From the NCBI RefSeq assembly GCF_021191705.1, contig NZ_JAIWPU010000003.1, forward strand, positions 62,001 through 126,000: DNA of 64,000 bases, written 5' to 3'. A program made the position numbers and the translations under genes. The DNA is from Proluteimonas flavola (GTDB lineage Bacteria; Pseudomonadota; Gammaproteobacteria; Xanthomonadales; Xanthomonadaceae). How positions within the stretch are numbered: position 1 is the stretch's first letter; each line of letters begins with the position of its first letter. The notes below the pieces were generated by a model that was given only the letters and a program-made list of their open reading frames with translations, was not told the DNA's origin and did no database searches. Shown in pieces: positions 48,251-53,335 of the stretch.

Positions 48251-49054
48251 TCAAGTGCGTGCGTCCAGCGCCGCGACGATGCGCTGGCGCGACACGTCGG
48301 CCATCTGCCGGCGACCTTCGGTGTCGCCTGGCAGGATCGGTTCGAGGAACGCGACCTCGGCGTCGCGCGACGGTTCGCCGAGCAGCCGGATGAAATTGGC
48401 GAAGAACGATTCGCGCGGGCCGAAGGCGACGACCGTCTGCGCCGAACCGCGCCGCCCGTAGCGCAGCGCCACCGGTTGCACGGCGACATTGGCTTCCACG
48501 GCGGCCAGGAAAATGCGCGCATGGAACGGGCCGACCGCGTCGCCGCCGCGCGTGCGCCCCTCCGGGAACACCGCGACCGGACGCCCGTCGCGCAGCCGCG
48601 CCACCATCTCGTCGAGGACGCCGCCCAGCGACTCGGTGCTGCCGCGCTGGTGGAAGATCGTCTCCCCGCGCGCCGCCAGCCAGCCGACCACCGGCCAGCC
48701 GGCGATCTCGCGCTTGGCGACGAAGCCGACCATGCGCTGGCTGTGCAGCGCGACGATGTCGATCCAGCTCACGTGGTTGGCGACGAACAGCACCGCGCCC
48801 GGCAACGGCGTGCCGCGGCGATGCATGCGGAAACCGAACACCCGCATCAGTCCGCCCTGCCACCAGCGGATCATGCGGTGGTCGACGCGCTCCCCGCTGC
48901 GCAGCCGGCGCCGGCCGATCGGCGGCAGCATCGACAGCAGCAGGATCGGCAGGTGGATGCACAGGTGCCACAGCAGCACCGGCACGCGTATGCAATAACG
49001 CGACACGCGCGCCGGCGTGTCGCCGGCGTCGGCGCGAACGGAAGAAGAACTCAT
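48251..49054 (-). CDS. 1-acyl-sn-glycerol-3-phosphate acyltransferase-like protein (PlsC family)
   Basis: Membrane acyltransferase of 267 residues. A hydrophobic N-terminal span (VPVLLWHLCIHLPILLLSMLPP) precedes the HX4D catalytic motif in VANHVSWIDIVAL and the acceptor-binding block FPEGRTRGGDAV. It may make phosphatidic acid or transfer acyl chains to ornithine or other lipids. ATG at 49054 (MSSSSVRADAG). It is followed by the YheT-type hydrolase, suggesting joint lipid acyl turnover. Confidence 0.92.
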   Translation of the reverse strand: MSSSSVRADAGDTPARVSRYCIRVPVLLWHLCIHLPILLLSMLPPIGRRRLRSGERVDHRMIRWWQGGLMRVFGFRMHRRGTPLPGAVLFVANHVSWIDIVALHSQRMVGFVAKREIAGWPVVGWLAARGETIFHQRGSTESLGGVLDEMVARLRDGRPVAVFPEGRTRGGDAVGPFHARIFLAAVEANVAVQPVALRYGRRGSAQTVVAFGPRESFFANFIRLLGEPSRDAEVAFLEPILPGDTEGRRQMADVSRQRIVAALDART

Positions 49055-49307
49055 CGGTGCACGATACCCAAACACGGACCTTCGCGGCGTAGAACGCGTC
49101 CAAGGTCCGTCGCGAGCGCCGCCGGATGGTGCGTGGCGGAGCGCAGGAAGCGCAGCGTACGCGTGGTACGTGGGCATTGTGGCCGCCGTCCACGGCGCCC
49201 ACCCTTCGGGCCAGCGACGAGCGCTGTCAGGAACCGCGCTCCCGCGGTTCCTTCCGAGCACCGCACGCGCGCCATCGGGCAAGCGCAGCAGGACCTTGGA
49301 TGCGTTC

Positions 49308-49724
49308 TCACGGTTTCGGCACCACCGCGAGCGTCAGCCGCGAGATGCAGACCAGCTTGCCGGCGGCGTCTTCGATGCGGATCTCCCAGACCTGGGTGCT
49401 GCGGCCGACATGCAACGCGCGCGCGGTGCCGGTCACGGTGCCGCCACGCACGCCACGCAGATGGTTGGCGTTGATCTCGATGCCGACGACGCCGTGGCCC
49501 TCGGGCGCGGACAGGCCGCCGGCGCTGCTGCCGAGCGTTTCGGCCAGCAGCGCGGACGCGCCGCCATGCAGCAGGCCGAACGGTTGATGGGTGCGGCTGT
49601 CGACGGGCATCGTCGCGCGCAGGAAGTCCGGGCCGATCTCGGTGAAGACGATGCCCAGCGCGGCAATCGCCGTGTTGGCGGACATCGCGTTGAGCTGGTC
49701 GAGCGAAGTGTCGCTGCGGAACAT
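49308..49724 (-). CDS. Hotdog-fold thioesterase (YbdB/YdiI/PaaI type)
   Basis: Acyl-CoA thioesterase of 138 residues. The hotdog signature THQPFGLLHGGASALLAETLGSSAG has the catalytic Glu on the central helix, and the late strand GTARALHVGRSTQVWEI completes the fold. It is like EntH/YdiI, which act on aryl or acyl-CoA. A 253-base gap with no evident gene separates it from the acyltransferase. It stands downstream of the three small ORFs on the same strand. Confidence 0.92.
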   Translation of the reverse strand: MFRSDTSLDQLNAMSANTAIAALGIVFTEIGPDFLRATMPVDSRTHQPFGLLHGGASALLAETLGSSAGGLSAPEGHGVVGIEINANHLRGVRGGTVTGTARALHVGRSTQVWEIRIEDAAGKLVCISRLTLAVVPKP

Positions 49725-49856
49725 GCGCGGAAGGCTCCGGTGGAAACCGGCAGCTTAGGCCGTTGTGCGCCGCCGCGCAGCGCGACCGGCGGAATGGCGC
49801 GTCGCGATCGCGCGCATACCGGTCGCGGAAGGTCGATGCACGTCGGGCGACGCGGA

Positions 49857-50030
49857 TCAGGCGATGCGGAAGCGCGTCGGCATGGCGCTGTCGCGGACTT
49901 CGCAGCGGAACGGGCTGTCGGCGTGGCGGCGCGCGGCGCGGACCTGGGCATGGAAGCGCGCAGGCTGGGCGATGCAGGCCGGAACCGGAGCGGACGTCTC
50001 GGTGGTGCGGATGGTGTGGATGCGGAACAT
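49857..50030 (-). CDS. Tandem small protein 3 (57 aa, C-terminal RFRIA)
   Basis: Frame of 57 codons: starts MFRIHTIRTTETSAPVPACI, has two Cys, and ends MPTRFRIA. AGGAG lies 8 bases upstream of the ATG. The last eight codons or so are nearly identical in DNA to those of the two upstream ORFs. The middle lacks the Gly-Tyr-Gly block of the others and is Arg/His-rich. No signal peptide or membrane span. I do not recognise the family. Confidence 0.6.
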   Translation of the reverse strand: MFRIHTIRTTETSAPVPACIAQPARFHAQVRAARRHADSPFRCEVRDSAMPTRFRIA

Positions 50031-50100
50031 GGCGGATCTCCTGAGGATCGCGGGAACGCTTCAGGTGCCGGCACTGATCAGGCGATCGGACGATCGGGAA

Positions 50101-50265
50101 TCAGGCGATGCGGAAGCGCGAAGGGCTGGCGTGGGTGACGTAGCTGCGCGGGGCGCCGTAGCTGCTGCTGGCGCCGTAACCGGTGCCGGGCTCGCGGGCG
50201 GGGCGTGCGGCGACGCACGGCACGAGGTGGGCGGCGGCATCGACGATGGCGTGCATGCGGGACAT
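50101..50265 (-). CDS. Tandem small protein 2 (54 aa, C-terminal RFRIA)
   Basis: Frame of 54 codons: MSRMHAIVDAAAHLVPCV, then GTGYGASSSYGAPRSYVTHA and the end SRFRIA. AGGAG stands 9 bases before the ATG. It shares the GYG-SSxYGxPRSYxT block with protein 1 and the C-terminal RFRIA with both others. It lies 29 bases after protein 1 and 70 before protein 3, a clear tandem family. Such short proteins could be RiPP-like precursors, toxin/antitoxin peptides or structural peptides; none of these is proven. Confidence 0.65.
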   Translation of the reverse strand: MSRMHAIVDAAAHLVPCVAARPAREPGTGYGASSSYGAPRSYVTHASPSRFRIA

Positions 50266-50294
50266 GGCGGTTCTCCTGGAATGCTGGACGGGGA

Positions 50295-50441
50295 TCAGGC
50301 GACGCGGAAGCGGGCCGGGACCGATGCGGTGGCGTAGCTGCGCGGCGTGCCGTAACCGCTGCTGCGGCCGTAGCCGAGACCGAAGGGGCGGACGAGGGCG
50401 GTGTTGGCGTTGCGGGCGGTGGGCGGGGTCTGGGTCTGCAT
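50295..50441 (-). CDS. Tandem small protein 1 (48 aa, C-terminal RFRVA)
   Basis: Frame of 48 codons: MQTQTPPTARNANTALVRPF, then GLGYGRSSGYGTPRSYATAS and the end ARFRVA. GAGGA lies upstream of the ATG at 50441. It is the first of three same-strand ORFs, preceded by an AT-richer regulatory-looking region (50465-50570). It lacks Cys, signal peptide and membrane helix. The net charge is strongly positive and the middle is Gly/Tyr/Ser-rich. Confidence 0.62.
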   Translation of the reverse strand: MQTQTPPTARNANTALVRPFGLGYGRSSGYGTPRSYATASVPARFRVA

Positions 50442-50792
50442 GGCGGGGTCCTCGAGGTGGTTGTGCTTCGGTGTGTTGGTAGACTACAACACCACTGTTC
50501 GATAACACCACGTGCAGAAAGTCATGCCGTGCGAATTCATCAGCAATGTTCATTGTTTGTTCATTCAAATGGCGATGCTTCCCGTCGTTGCAATCAAGAC
50601 GGGTCGGCGACGAAGCGCGTGACCGCGCAGGGACGATGCCGCGCATGCGCGCGGCCGCAGGGCGTCCGGACAGTCGAAATCCCGAAGCCGCGCCGCGTCG
50701 GCGCGGCACACAGGACCCGTCGGATGGGGAGAGCGCAGCGAAACCCGCAGCCACCGCGCACGCAGTGCCGGGAGGGCGATCCCCGTCCGGCC
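50442..50792. promoter_or_regulatory. Upstream region of the small-protein cluster
   Basis: GTGTTG (50473-50478) and CAACAC (50487-50492) form an inverted repeat around TAG-A-CTA. TGTTCATT occurs twice (50547-50554, 50558-50565), 11 bp apart, i.e. one helical turn. The stretch 50500-50590 is clearly AT-richer than its surroundings. The remaining part to 50792 (after the phospholipase stop) is GC-rich with an imperfect hairpin around 50690-50715 and no convincing gene. Confidence 0.45.
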
Positions 50793-52739
50793 TCAGAGAA
50801 TCGGCACGAGCCCCGCACCGAACGCGGTGAAGATCCGCGTCAGCAGGCTGCGCAAGCCCAGGCTCACTTCCGGGAAATCGCCCACCGCGACATAGCACTC
50901 GCGGAAGCCCGGGGCGTCCGGCGGCAGCGGTGCCGGGCAGTCGGGCCCGGGCTGGAACTCGAAACTGGTCGCGTAGCGCGTCGGCCACAGGTCGAAGATC
51001 GGCAGACGCTCGGAGACCTTGGCCATCGAGTAGTCCACGCCCGAGAACACCAGCGGCGGATCGCGCCGCGCGATCGTCCAGGAATTCTCCGGCGACATGT
51101 CGCGGCGGATGCTCGCGGCCAGCCGCTGCGCGAAGCGCGCGTCGTCGATGACCACGGCGCTCTCGGTATTGAGGTTGTCGCCGCGCGGATCGAAGTTGTG
51201 CGTGCCGACCACGCCGATGCGTTCGTCGACGACCAGCGACTTCGCGTGCAGACCCATGCGCAGGCCGGTGCGGTTCAGGGGCACGCGCCGGTTCACACCG
51301 ATGCCCGCATAGCGCAGGGCCGAATACTCGCGCGTCAACGGCGGCACATTCGCGGGACGCGCGGCGATCACGTCCTCACGCGTCGTCGCCGCGCCTTCGG
51401 TGCCGCTTTCGTCGAGATTGACGCTGCCATCGGCATTCCAGGAGATGCCGACCGCGCCGGTGACCTCGAGATCGATCGGCGCGTCCTCCGGAAACGGTTT
51501 GTACTCGTAGATCTGGAAGCCGAACTCGCGCAGGTGCCGGCGCTTGTACTTGTACGACAGCGCGTAGGTGATGAAGGAGTCGGTCGCCGCCAGGCTGTTG
51601 GTCGACACCACGACCTGCGGCGCGTCGGGCCGGGCACGCAGATCGGCGAACATCTGTTCGGCTGGCTTGGACAGCACCAGGTAGGGCGTCTGCAGCAGCA
51701 CTTCGTCCTGGGCCGACTCGATCAGTTCGCGCAACCGCGGCGTCGACGCACTCGCGGCCTCGGCGGCCTCGCGGTCGCGCCGGTGCTTGGCCGGCAGGTC
51801 GCCGATGAACTCGACCTGCCCCACCGGCAGCGCGGCATCGACCAGGCGCTGGCGCACGAGCGCGGCATCGCCGGCGTCTTCCAGGATCGCGGCCACGCGC
51901 TGCGGGCGCTGGTATTCCTGGAACGACACCGCCGGCACGCCGCGGCGCAGCAGGTGCCGTCCGACGTCGCCCAGCTGTTCGACCGGCGTGCTGAGCGGCG
52001 CATGCCAGAACGCGACGAAGTTCTCCTCCATCGCCTCGATCACGGGCCCGGCGATCAGCAGATCGCGGTCGCGGAAGTTGAAGGTGTCGTTCCAGTCGAA
52101 ATAGTCGTCCTGGTAGTTGCGGCCGCCGGTGATGCCGACCACGCCGTCGATCAGCAGCGCCTTGCTGTGCATGCGCTGGTTGAGCCGGCGCCAGCAGCAG
52201 GCCGCGGCCAGCGCGTATTGCGGATAACTGATGCGCGCGCGCCCGAGCACCGGGTTGTAGATGCGCATCTCGAAATTGGTGTGCGCGCCGGCCAGCGCCG
52301 ACAGCGTTTCCACCGTGCGCATCGCCGAGAGCTGGTCGACCAGCAGCCGCACCTGCACGCCCCGCCGCGCGGCCGAGAGCAGTTCCTCGAGTACGAGATG
52401 ACCCGAATCGTCCTCGTCGAAGATGTAGGTCTGCACGTCGATCGTGCGTTGCGCGCCGCGGATCAGATCCAGTCGTGCGAGCAATGCGTCCTGGCCGTAT
52501 TCCAGCAGCAGCGCGTAATGCCGCGGTGCGGTCGGCGTGCTGTGCGCCACCGCCTGCGTGCCGAGATCGCGCAGCGGCGACGGCGCCGCGCAGGCGTCCG
52601 CGCGATCGCACAGCACTTGTGTCGAACGCGCTTCGACCGCGATATGCGCGGCGGCATCGCGCTTGGCCGGCGACAGCGTGGTGCAGGCGGCGGTCGCCAG
52701 CGTCGCCGCCAGCAGCAGGGCGCGGGTGACAGCGTGCAT
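50793..52739 (-). CDS. Phospholipase D-family lipoprotein (cardiolipin synthase-like)
   Basis: Lipoprotein of 648 residues (lipobox ATAACT) with two HKD half-sites: HSKALLIDGVVGITGGRNYQDDYFD (about 220-245) and HAKSLVVDERIGVVGTHNFDPRGDN (about 470-495). Both keep His, Lys and Asp, so the enzyme should be active. The family includes ClsC/YmdC-like cardiolipin synthases and PLD nucleases; the envelope location favours a phospholipid substrate. Its ATG overlaps the YceI stop (TGATG), giving an operon SixA-YceI-PLD. Confidence 0.92.
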   Translation of the reverse strand: MHAVTRALLLAATLATAACTTLSPAKRDAAAHIAVEARSTQVLCDRADACAAPSPLRDLGTQAVAHSTPTAPRHYALLLEYGQDALLARLDLIRGAQRTIDVQTYIFDEDDSGHLVLEELLSAARRGVQVRLLVDQLSAMRTVETLSALAGAHTNFEMRIYNPVLGRARISYPQYALAAACCWRRLNQRMHSKALLIDGVVGITGGRNYQDDYFDWNDTFNFRDRDLLIAGPVIEAMEENFVAFWHAPLSTPVEQLGDVGRHLLRRGVPAVSFQEYQRPQRVAAILEDAGDAALVRQRLVDAALPVGQVEFIGDLPAKHRRDREAAEAASASTPRLRELIESAQDEVLLQTPYLVLSKPAEQMFADLRARPDAPQVVVSTNSLAATDSFITYALSYKYKRRHLREFGFQIYEYKPFPEDAPIDLEVTGAVGISWNADGSVNLDESGTEGAATTREDVIAARPANVPPLTREYSALRYAGIGVNRRVPLNRTGLRMGLHAKSLVVDERIGVVGTHNFDPRGDNLNTESAVVIDDARFAQRLAASIRRDMSPENSWTIARRDPPLVFSGVDYSMAKVSERLPIFDLWPTRYATSFEFQPGPDCPAPLPPDAPGFRECYVAVGDFPEVSLGLRSLLTRIFTAFGAGLVPIL

Positions 52740-53335
52740 CAGCGCGATTCCAGCGCGCGGATCCGCAGCGTGAACCGCACCTGGTCGGCGAGCGCATAGC
52801 CCCAGCGATCCATCGCGTACTGGCTGCGCCGCACGTCGCCTTCGCCGACCACATCGCAGTCCAGGCCGGGACGCGCGCATTCGGCGGCCACGATCCGGAA
52901 GGTTTCCCGGCGCTGCACGCCGCGGATGCTGAGGATGCCGGTCATCTCGCCGCCGTCGCGCGTCAGCGTGGCGGGGTAGGGGTCGGAGACGAAGCGCACT
53001 TCGGGAAACCGCGCGACATCGAACACGCCCGGCCCGCGGGTGATGCGGGTGTAGGCGCGGCTGTCGACGATCTCGACGCTTTCGGCATCCAGGATCAACC
53101 GCACCTGATGGCGGCCATCGGCCAGCACGGCGATCTCACCGCGCCAGTCGTCGAAACGGCCTTCCAGTTGCTGGCCCCAGCGGGTCTTGAGGCTGAAGCC
53201 GATCTCCGAACGCGTCCGGTCGAGCGACAGCGTGTGGCCGGGCGCGTCGGTCGATGCGAATGCAGGCGCGACGCAGGCCGCCGACAGGCACAGGCCCGCC
53301 AGTGTACGCAGCACGGAGCCGGCGGCGTGGGCCAT
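52739..53335 (-). CDS. YceI-family periplasmic protein
   Basis: Exported lipocalin-like protein of about 198 residues. The signal peptide is MAHAAGSVLRTLAGLCLSAACVAPAFAS. The YceI pattern follows: HTLSLDRTRSEIGFSLKTRWG, GRFDDWRGEI, SRAYTRITRGPGVFDVARFPEVRFVS, MTGILSIRGVQRRETF, and SQYAMDRWGYALADQVRFTLRI. It binds isoprenoid-like or amphiphilic lipids in homologues. The start could be the GTG at 53383 that overlaps the SixA gene; I prefer ATG 53335 for the cleaner signal. It is coupled to the phospholipase gene. Confidence 0.9.
   Translation of the reverse strand: MAHAAGSVLRTLAGLCLSAACVAPAFASTDAPGHTLSLDRTRSEIGFSLKTRWGQQLEGRFDDWRGEIAVLADGRHQVRLILDAESVEIVDSRAYTRITRGPGVFDVARFPEVRFVSDPYPATLTRDGGEMTGILSIRGVQRRETFRIVAAECARPGLDCDVVGEGDVRRSQYAMDRWGYALADQVRFTLRIRALESR

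Follow-up and report, generated by a model that had tools for sequence, protein, structure and literature searches.

Two of three tandem tiny genes in Proluteimonas flavola belong to a microprotein family with a conserved C-terminal module and a near-private promoter box

What is the role of three tiny genes that lie in tandem on one strand of the Proluteimonas flavola genome and end in the same few residues? We analysed a stretch of 64,000 nucleotides (hereafter the window), in which an earlier note, made from the sequence alone, had described minus-strand ORFs of 48, 54 and 57 codons, each with its own AGGAG or GAGGA site and spaced 29 and 70 bases apart. All of these features were found again in the window sequence. 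ORF1 (50295..50441, 48 aa), ORF2 (50101..50265, 54 aa) and ORF3 (49857..50030, 57 aa) lie on the minus strand, with gaps of 29 nt between ORF1 and ORF2 and 70 nt between ORF2 and ORF3, and their Shine–Dalgarno sequences are GAGGA, AGGAG and AGGAG respectively, each followed by ...CCGCCATG. The stop context TCAGGCGAYGCGGA (plus strand) is exact at all three genes, but of the approximately eight last codons described as nearly identical only five, together with the stop, are common to them. The GYG-SS-YG-PRSY block ascribed to the first two proteins is present in ORF1 and ORF2 and nowhere in ORF3.

A microprotein family with a conserved C-terminal module

Alignment of 20 members, ORF1 and ORF2 included, gave the C-terminal module consensus RxRDFGxGYGxSSGYAxxRRY...RFRxA behind free N-termini. 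Used as the sole query, ORF2 found ORF1 in its own genome (E 1.5e-6) as well as tiny genes in tandem arrays across many genera of the bacterial family, the relatives in other genera reaching down to E 8.3e-8. A homologue search of this kind had been proposed in the earlier note, and it recovered relatives with the same frame and tail across these genera. The cross-matches of ORF2, together with the ORF3 orthologues described below, indicate that the likeness exceeds chance. The module profile gave E values of 5.1e-19 and 1.0e-17 in the window's own genome, which are partly circular because ORF1 and ORF2 are rows of the profile.

The same profile, with tiny genes and the YkvA-like tails described below counted together, matched 192 of 297 genomes of the bacterial family, in 41 of its 54 genera, with at most 21 candidates scored per genome. 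A draw from the order gave 16 matching genomes out of 200 (at most 32 candidates scored in each), among them three genomes from a second family and one from a third; for these two families tiny genes were listed and no long tailed frame was listed. Draws from the class (274 genomes, at most 23 candidates each) and from the phylum (398 genomes, at most 16 each) both yielded a single match, the window's own genome. A scan of named genomes led to 54 loci in Luteimonas, Lysobacter, Thermomonas, Vulcaniibacterium and others, of which 50 had at least one tiny gene, three had a YkvA-like tail only and one had no profile match. The named loci nearest to the window were those of Lysobacteraceae bacterium PS02340 and Luteimonas terrae, which would place it probably within or near Luteimonas, and a single tiny-gene copy was present per fetched locus in Lysobacter enzymogenes (L116) and L. 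antibioticus (L111 and L113).

Profile searches of Pfam, NCBIfam, PADLOC, PDB and Rfam gave no at-threshold match for the family. The best match in a curated library was the unannotated PHROG 32629, obtained with two of 20 members (E 0.0063), in line with the initial statement that no named family has this ending. The module strings were absent from the parts of the literature that were searched; the portions covered on small proteins, YkvA and Clp held nothing on such tiny genes, and those on DUF1232 consisted of plant RING-gene papers only. Judged by alignment, ORF1 and ORF2 belong to a microprotein family that is limited to the order and keeps one C-terminal module, and the family is new in the sense that no named family or described system was matched in the libraries and the parts of the literature searched.

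The three proteins had been taken as a trio sharing one tail. Although ORF1 and ORF2 are true module members, ORF3 does not stand as their equal, since it aligned with the module profile over 8 columns (hhalign probability 2, E 0.023), and by this comparison it is unlinked to the GYG module beyond its last residues. ORF3 is a genus-level companion and the last gene of the genus array, with orthologues in six of 51 other genomes of the genus (53–82% identity, E 3.7e-27 to 5.6e-10), all within such arrays; five of these six relatives end in RFH, not RFR.

Several variants were observed among the loci. A longer form of 83, 92 and up to 111 aa (L180, L181 and L187) has a related N-terminus and the same module at its end, adjoins one conserved large gene (C77) and has no box listed. 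At L089 and L099 an internal RFRVA/RFRIA precedes the module, no box lies upstream, and a tailed YkvA-like gene adjoins. One tiny gene (L110, 5534-5734) has a GRSSGYG unit duplicated within it. Two contigs of metagenome-assembled genomes, labelled Cupriavidus sp. (L103) and Gammaproteobacteria bacterium (L102), contain Lysobacteraceae-type tiny genes and neighbours, and L103 may be mis-binned.

We compared the tiny proteins with two known kinds of protein. In size (~55 aa), basic character and Gly/Tyr/Trp/Arg content they resemble the hibernation factor RMF, but this candidate was rejected, as no alignment was obtained with the E. coli RMF sequence (hhalign probability 0.1). A homologous C-terminus on unrelated N-termini, limited to one bacterial group, also recalls C-terminal sorting tags of the PEP-CTERM type, in which a transmembrane helix precedes the basic end. 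Unlike these, the tiny proteins are hydrophilic and have no transmembrane stretch, none of 87 exceeding a hydropathy of 1.6 over 19 residues; their mean net charge is +5.9, with a lowest value of −2. The structure model of ORF2 (pLDDT 61.7, pTM 0.20) had no confident fold and one helix at residues 3–13. The N-termini are Ala/Pro/Thr-rich by eye, and the variable N-terminus is probably disordered, although the helix in the ORF2 model counts against this.

Protein-level constraint and array turnover

Protein-level constraint was seen in the module core and at its end. From the 89 members kept (nine were dropped), 87 distinct proteins were compared pairwise with relatedness ignored, and pN/pS was 0.60 for the core and 0.52 for the last four codons. 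Shifted frames of the core gave 1.16 and 0.95. The codons that separate core and end were unconstrained (1.27), and the N-terminal part gave 1.29 on unaligned codons. Selection on the C-terminus, claimed at the outset, is borne out, constraint being stronger there. A dN/dS comparison had also been proposed: for the four array genes of the genus, dN/dS was below 1 in every orthologue pair, the highest being 0.87, again with relatedness ignored. The summed pN/pS values were 0.52 for ORF2, 0.31 for gene 2, 0.56 for gene 1 and 0.59 for ORF3, and some pairs of ORF3 and of gene 1 reached a dN/dS of 0.8–0.87, that is, moderate whole-gene constraint.

The arrays of the closest relatives contain four genes. 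Compared with all three relatives examined, ORF1 of the window corresponds to gene 1 of the genus up to about GGCCGCAGCAGC and to gene 2 beyond it. ORF1 is therefore a recombinant of the 5′ part of gene 1 and the 3′ part of gene 2, and the window array lost one gene by recombination between two modules. Thus the proposal of a recent tandem duplication stands as regards a tandem family but not as regards 'recent', the window array being a contraction.

A promoter box bound to the tiny genes

Three features were absent from the earlier note: the full length of the GYG module, the presence of this module on a DUF1232/YkvA-like protein, and a promoter box. The box, GGTGTTGTAGTCTACCAACACACC (50470..50493, minus strand), is an imperfect palindrome, GTGTTG...CAACAC, around a sigma70-like −10, TAGTCT (50481-50486, minus strand), and a TGAC-anchored element, TGACTTTCTGCACGTG (50509..50524, minus strand; family consensus TGACTTCYGGCMCATG), lies upstream of it. 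Across the family, the consensus of the box upstream of the first tiny gene is GGTGTTGTAnnnTACCARCACACC. A DNA-only scan with GTGTTGTANNNTACCARCACACC detected 77 exact boxes in 69 of 198 genomes of the bacterial family, and the reversed control pattern detected none. A tiny GYG gene starts 5–110 nt downstream of 76 of the 77 boxes; the remaining one precedes an interrupted frame (L203 from 1500, genome G011), in a genome where another box, at a different place (L229), precedes an open tiny gene. The window's own genome contains one box site at up to 3 mismatches. In the reverse direction, the first tiny gene had a box (up to 4 mismatches) no more than 160 nt away at 47 of the 50 named loci, and at three it had none. 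The box is near-private to the tiny genes, which is the strongest of our results, and the reverse link is incomplete. Tiny genes that lie dispersed among other neighbours are preceded by this box too, indicating that the unit consists of the box plus a tiny gene.

In total 104 distinct boxes were available; as most of them come from loci retrieved on account of a tiny gene, the unbiased figure is that of the 77-box scan. T1, A2 and T6 of TAnnnT were invariant in all 104, and TAnnnT reads as a sigma70 −10, while the arms GTGTTG and CAACAC have the appearance of an operator. The TGAC-anchored TGACTTCYGGCMCATG element lies 28–32 nt before 101 of the 104 boxes, with a spacing of 29 in 60/101, 30 in 25/101 and 31 in 9/101; the window, at 31, is two above the commonest value. 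A spacing of 29 places the centre of the element 29.5–30.5 nt from the −10, depending on the register chosen, and spacings of 29 and 30 together place it at 29.5–31.5 nt. In class II CRP/Clp promoters the activator site is centred approximately 29.5 nt upstream of the −10, and the CRP/Clp recognition sequence is TGTGA-N6-TCACA; set against this sequence, one half of TGACTTCYGGCMCATG fits and the other half fits poorly. Scans of 49700-50800 for sigma70 promoters (−35 and −10) and for terminators found none, which for the former fits a promoter without a −35. Rfam returned one sub-threshold match only for 49400-50900. The full box strings were absent from the parts of the literature searched, in which TGACTTCCGGC alone occurred only in animal or medical papers. 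An early guess that the box is a GntR/YtrA operator was dropped for lack of support, and the literature passages searched yielded nothing on it either.

A module shared with a DUF1232 protein and what it may do

The neighbours of the array are conserved, as a comparison of the kind first proposed revealed. Upstream is a PLD-domain protein (50793..52880, minus strand; Pfam PLDc_2; cluster C1 in 44/55 loci), which we take to be cardiolipin-synthase-like, and downstream are a 4HBT thioesterase (49308..49724, minus strand; Pfam 4HBT; cluster C0 in 45/55 loci) and an acyltransferase (48251..49282, start codon provisional, minus strand; Pfam PF01553; cluster C2 in 35/55 loci). The order at the main locus is PLD protein, tiny array, a YkvA-like gene in some genera, 4HBT thioesterase and acyltransferase. 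Five window neighbours put to Pfam were identified as 4HBT, PLD, acyltransferase, ParA-like and YceI; none is a modifying enzyme, in agreement with the original observation. No shared modifying enzyme was seen among the 55 loci or the neighbours at 24 more (five of the main-locus type), all compared as ORF clusters rather than by Pfam.

A phage or plasmid origin was considered and rejected: viral contigs gave no confirmed relative, a plasmid search gave four weak matches (best E about 1), and a phage search gave eight, seven of them at E 0.3–10 and one at 1e-3. The last is a 1547-base sequence named Cyanobacteria phage AS-1 contig_20 (DQ115827.1; L249), in which a near-box accompanies a tiny GYG gene; it is probably bacterial contamination and looks to be of Lysobacterales origin.

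At some loci a DUF1232/YkvA-like protein of ~203 aa (Pfam DUF1232, E 5.4e-9) is encoded just downstream of the tiny genes, and the module forms its final ~37 residues (37 columns align at the C-terminus by hhalign, with probability 99 and E 2.4e-18). A tiny gene and a tailed YkvA-like gene occur together at nine of the 50 named loci, eight found by script and one (L071) by eye. Matches to the YkvA-like protein were obtained in 92 of 149 genomes of the bacterial family, and in one group the alignment continues through the tail, as far as about residue 200; for other DUF1232 proteins in these genomes the alignment ends at residue 193 or earlier, without the full tail. Thus one group of DUF1232/YkvA proteins (PF06803) in this bacterial family shares the module and can adjoin the tiny genes, whereas the tiny proteins themselves are without the DUF1232 domain (0/20 members match). 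No box is listed before the 203-aa protein. In the window's own genome no YkvA-like protein was found at E 0.1, and only the two tiny tails match. The structure model of the YkvA-like protein is poor overall (mean pLDDT 51.5), so the values below 50 at tail residues 174–203 are weak evidence that the tail may be disordered.

Our best explanation, which we favour only tentatively, is that the module on the tiny proteins is a docking ligand for a putative trans-encoded partner shared with the YkvA-like protein, dosed by promoter and copies. ORF1 and ORF2, probably with ORF3, would be transcribed from one dedicated promoter, in which a sigma70 −10 (TAnnnT) lies within a palindromic operator for a putative repressor, and the upstream element, a candidate activator site, is at roughly the class II distance from the −10. 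Each tiny protein would combine a variable N-terminus with a fixed cationic-aromatic module that docks on the partner. That the partner may be shared is suggested because the DUF1232/YkvA-like protein, encoded in this cluster in other genera, ends in the same module, and an invariant short module on proteins otherwise unlike one another is most readily read as a ligand of one partner. Each tiny protein would be a free-standing copy of the tail that competes for, or loads, the same site as the YkvA-like tail, with promoter and tandem copy number determining how much of it is made. Since the window's own genome is without a YkvA-like protein, the tiny proteins of that genome cannot act by competing with it. 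Also against the explanation are the three named loci whose first tiny gene has no box, the two other families of the order with tiny genes but no listed long tailed frame, the unconstrained codons between core and end, the moderate whole-gene constraint and, for an activator, the window's spacing of 31 and the poor match to a CRP/Clp-type site. A bolder version, which we hold more doubtful, is an 'operon key' private to the order: a box that stands almost exclusively before one microprotein family, and a module serving as a docking code shared with the DUF1232 protein, would together form a self-contained regulatory unit that duplicates, disperses and addresses one putative cell hub.

Two further readings rank after docking. 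The Arg/Tyr/Phe-rich module may itself contact anionic lipid or RNA, with no need of a protein partner, as its basic and aromatic make-up (87 proteins, mean net charge +5.9) and the PLD-domain, thioesterase and acyltransferase neighbours of the main locus would suggest. However, most dispersed copies adjoin other genes, the Gly/Tyr/Ser spacing is invariant and stricter than a composition-driven binder needs, and the match of the YkvA-like proteins to an NCBIfam 'RNA-binding protein' is weak (3/12, best E 0.0077), so we regard this reading as unlikely. Somewhat less likely again is autoregulation, in which the tiny basic proteins would bind their own palindromic box and hold the promoter at a set level. 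The near-privacy of the box (76/77 sites, and one own-genome site at up to 3 mismatches) is what one would expect of a regulator that travels with its operator, but ORF2 has no confident fold, no Pfam DNA-binding family was matched, and the module also ends a 203-aa protein with no listed box before it. By contrast, we give very little credence to the box being an RNA hairpin that controls translation rather than an operator, the least probable reading of all. Pairing of the arms is feasible, and the T-G combination seen in 22 of 104 boxes preserves a wobble, yet no compensatory change was found, pairing is broken in 11 cells at left-arm positions 5 and 6, and TAnnnT as a −10 would leave most of the box outside the transcript.

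Two more readings are likewise disfavoured. The precursor-peptide role first suggested as one possibility, in which the conserved end would be modified and then released, fits small, tandem proteins with one conserved C-terminal block, but other comparisons speak against it: no modifying enzyme was found by Pfam among the five window neighbours and no shared one among the ORF clusters elsewhere, although one may be encoded at a distance; RiPP precursors usually have a fixed leader and a variable core, and here the pattern is reversed, the conserved part being C-terminal (pN/pS 0.60 for the core against 1.29 for the unaligned N-terminal part); the module also ends a large protein; and the promoter-gene unit disperses alone. 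We consider this role highly improbable, and we think just as little of small peptide toxins or antidotes. Small size, tandem copies and an own promoter would suit the latter, but none of the 87 proteins has a hydrophobic stretch or a transmembrane segment as in type I toxins, PADLOC gave no match in 20 members, and inheritance is syntenic in most loci.

Tiny proteins are hard to separate from noise, and here protein-level constraint and a near-exclusive promoter box are two independent signals, which together establish the family across the bacterial family that contains Lysobacter. The box allows members to be found from DNA alone, and the presence of the module on a DUF1232 protein offers a starting point for asking which partner the tail might bind.
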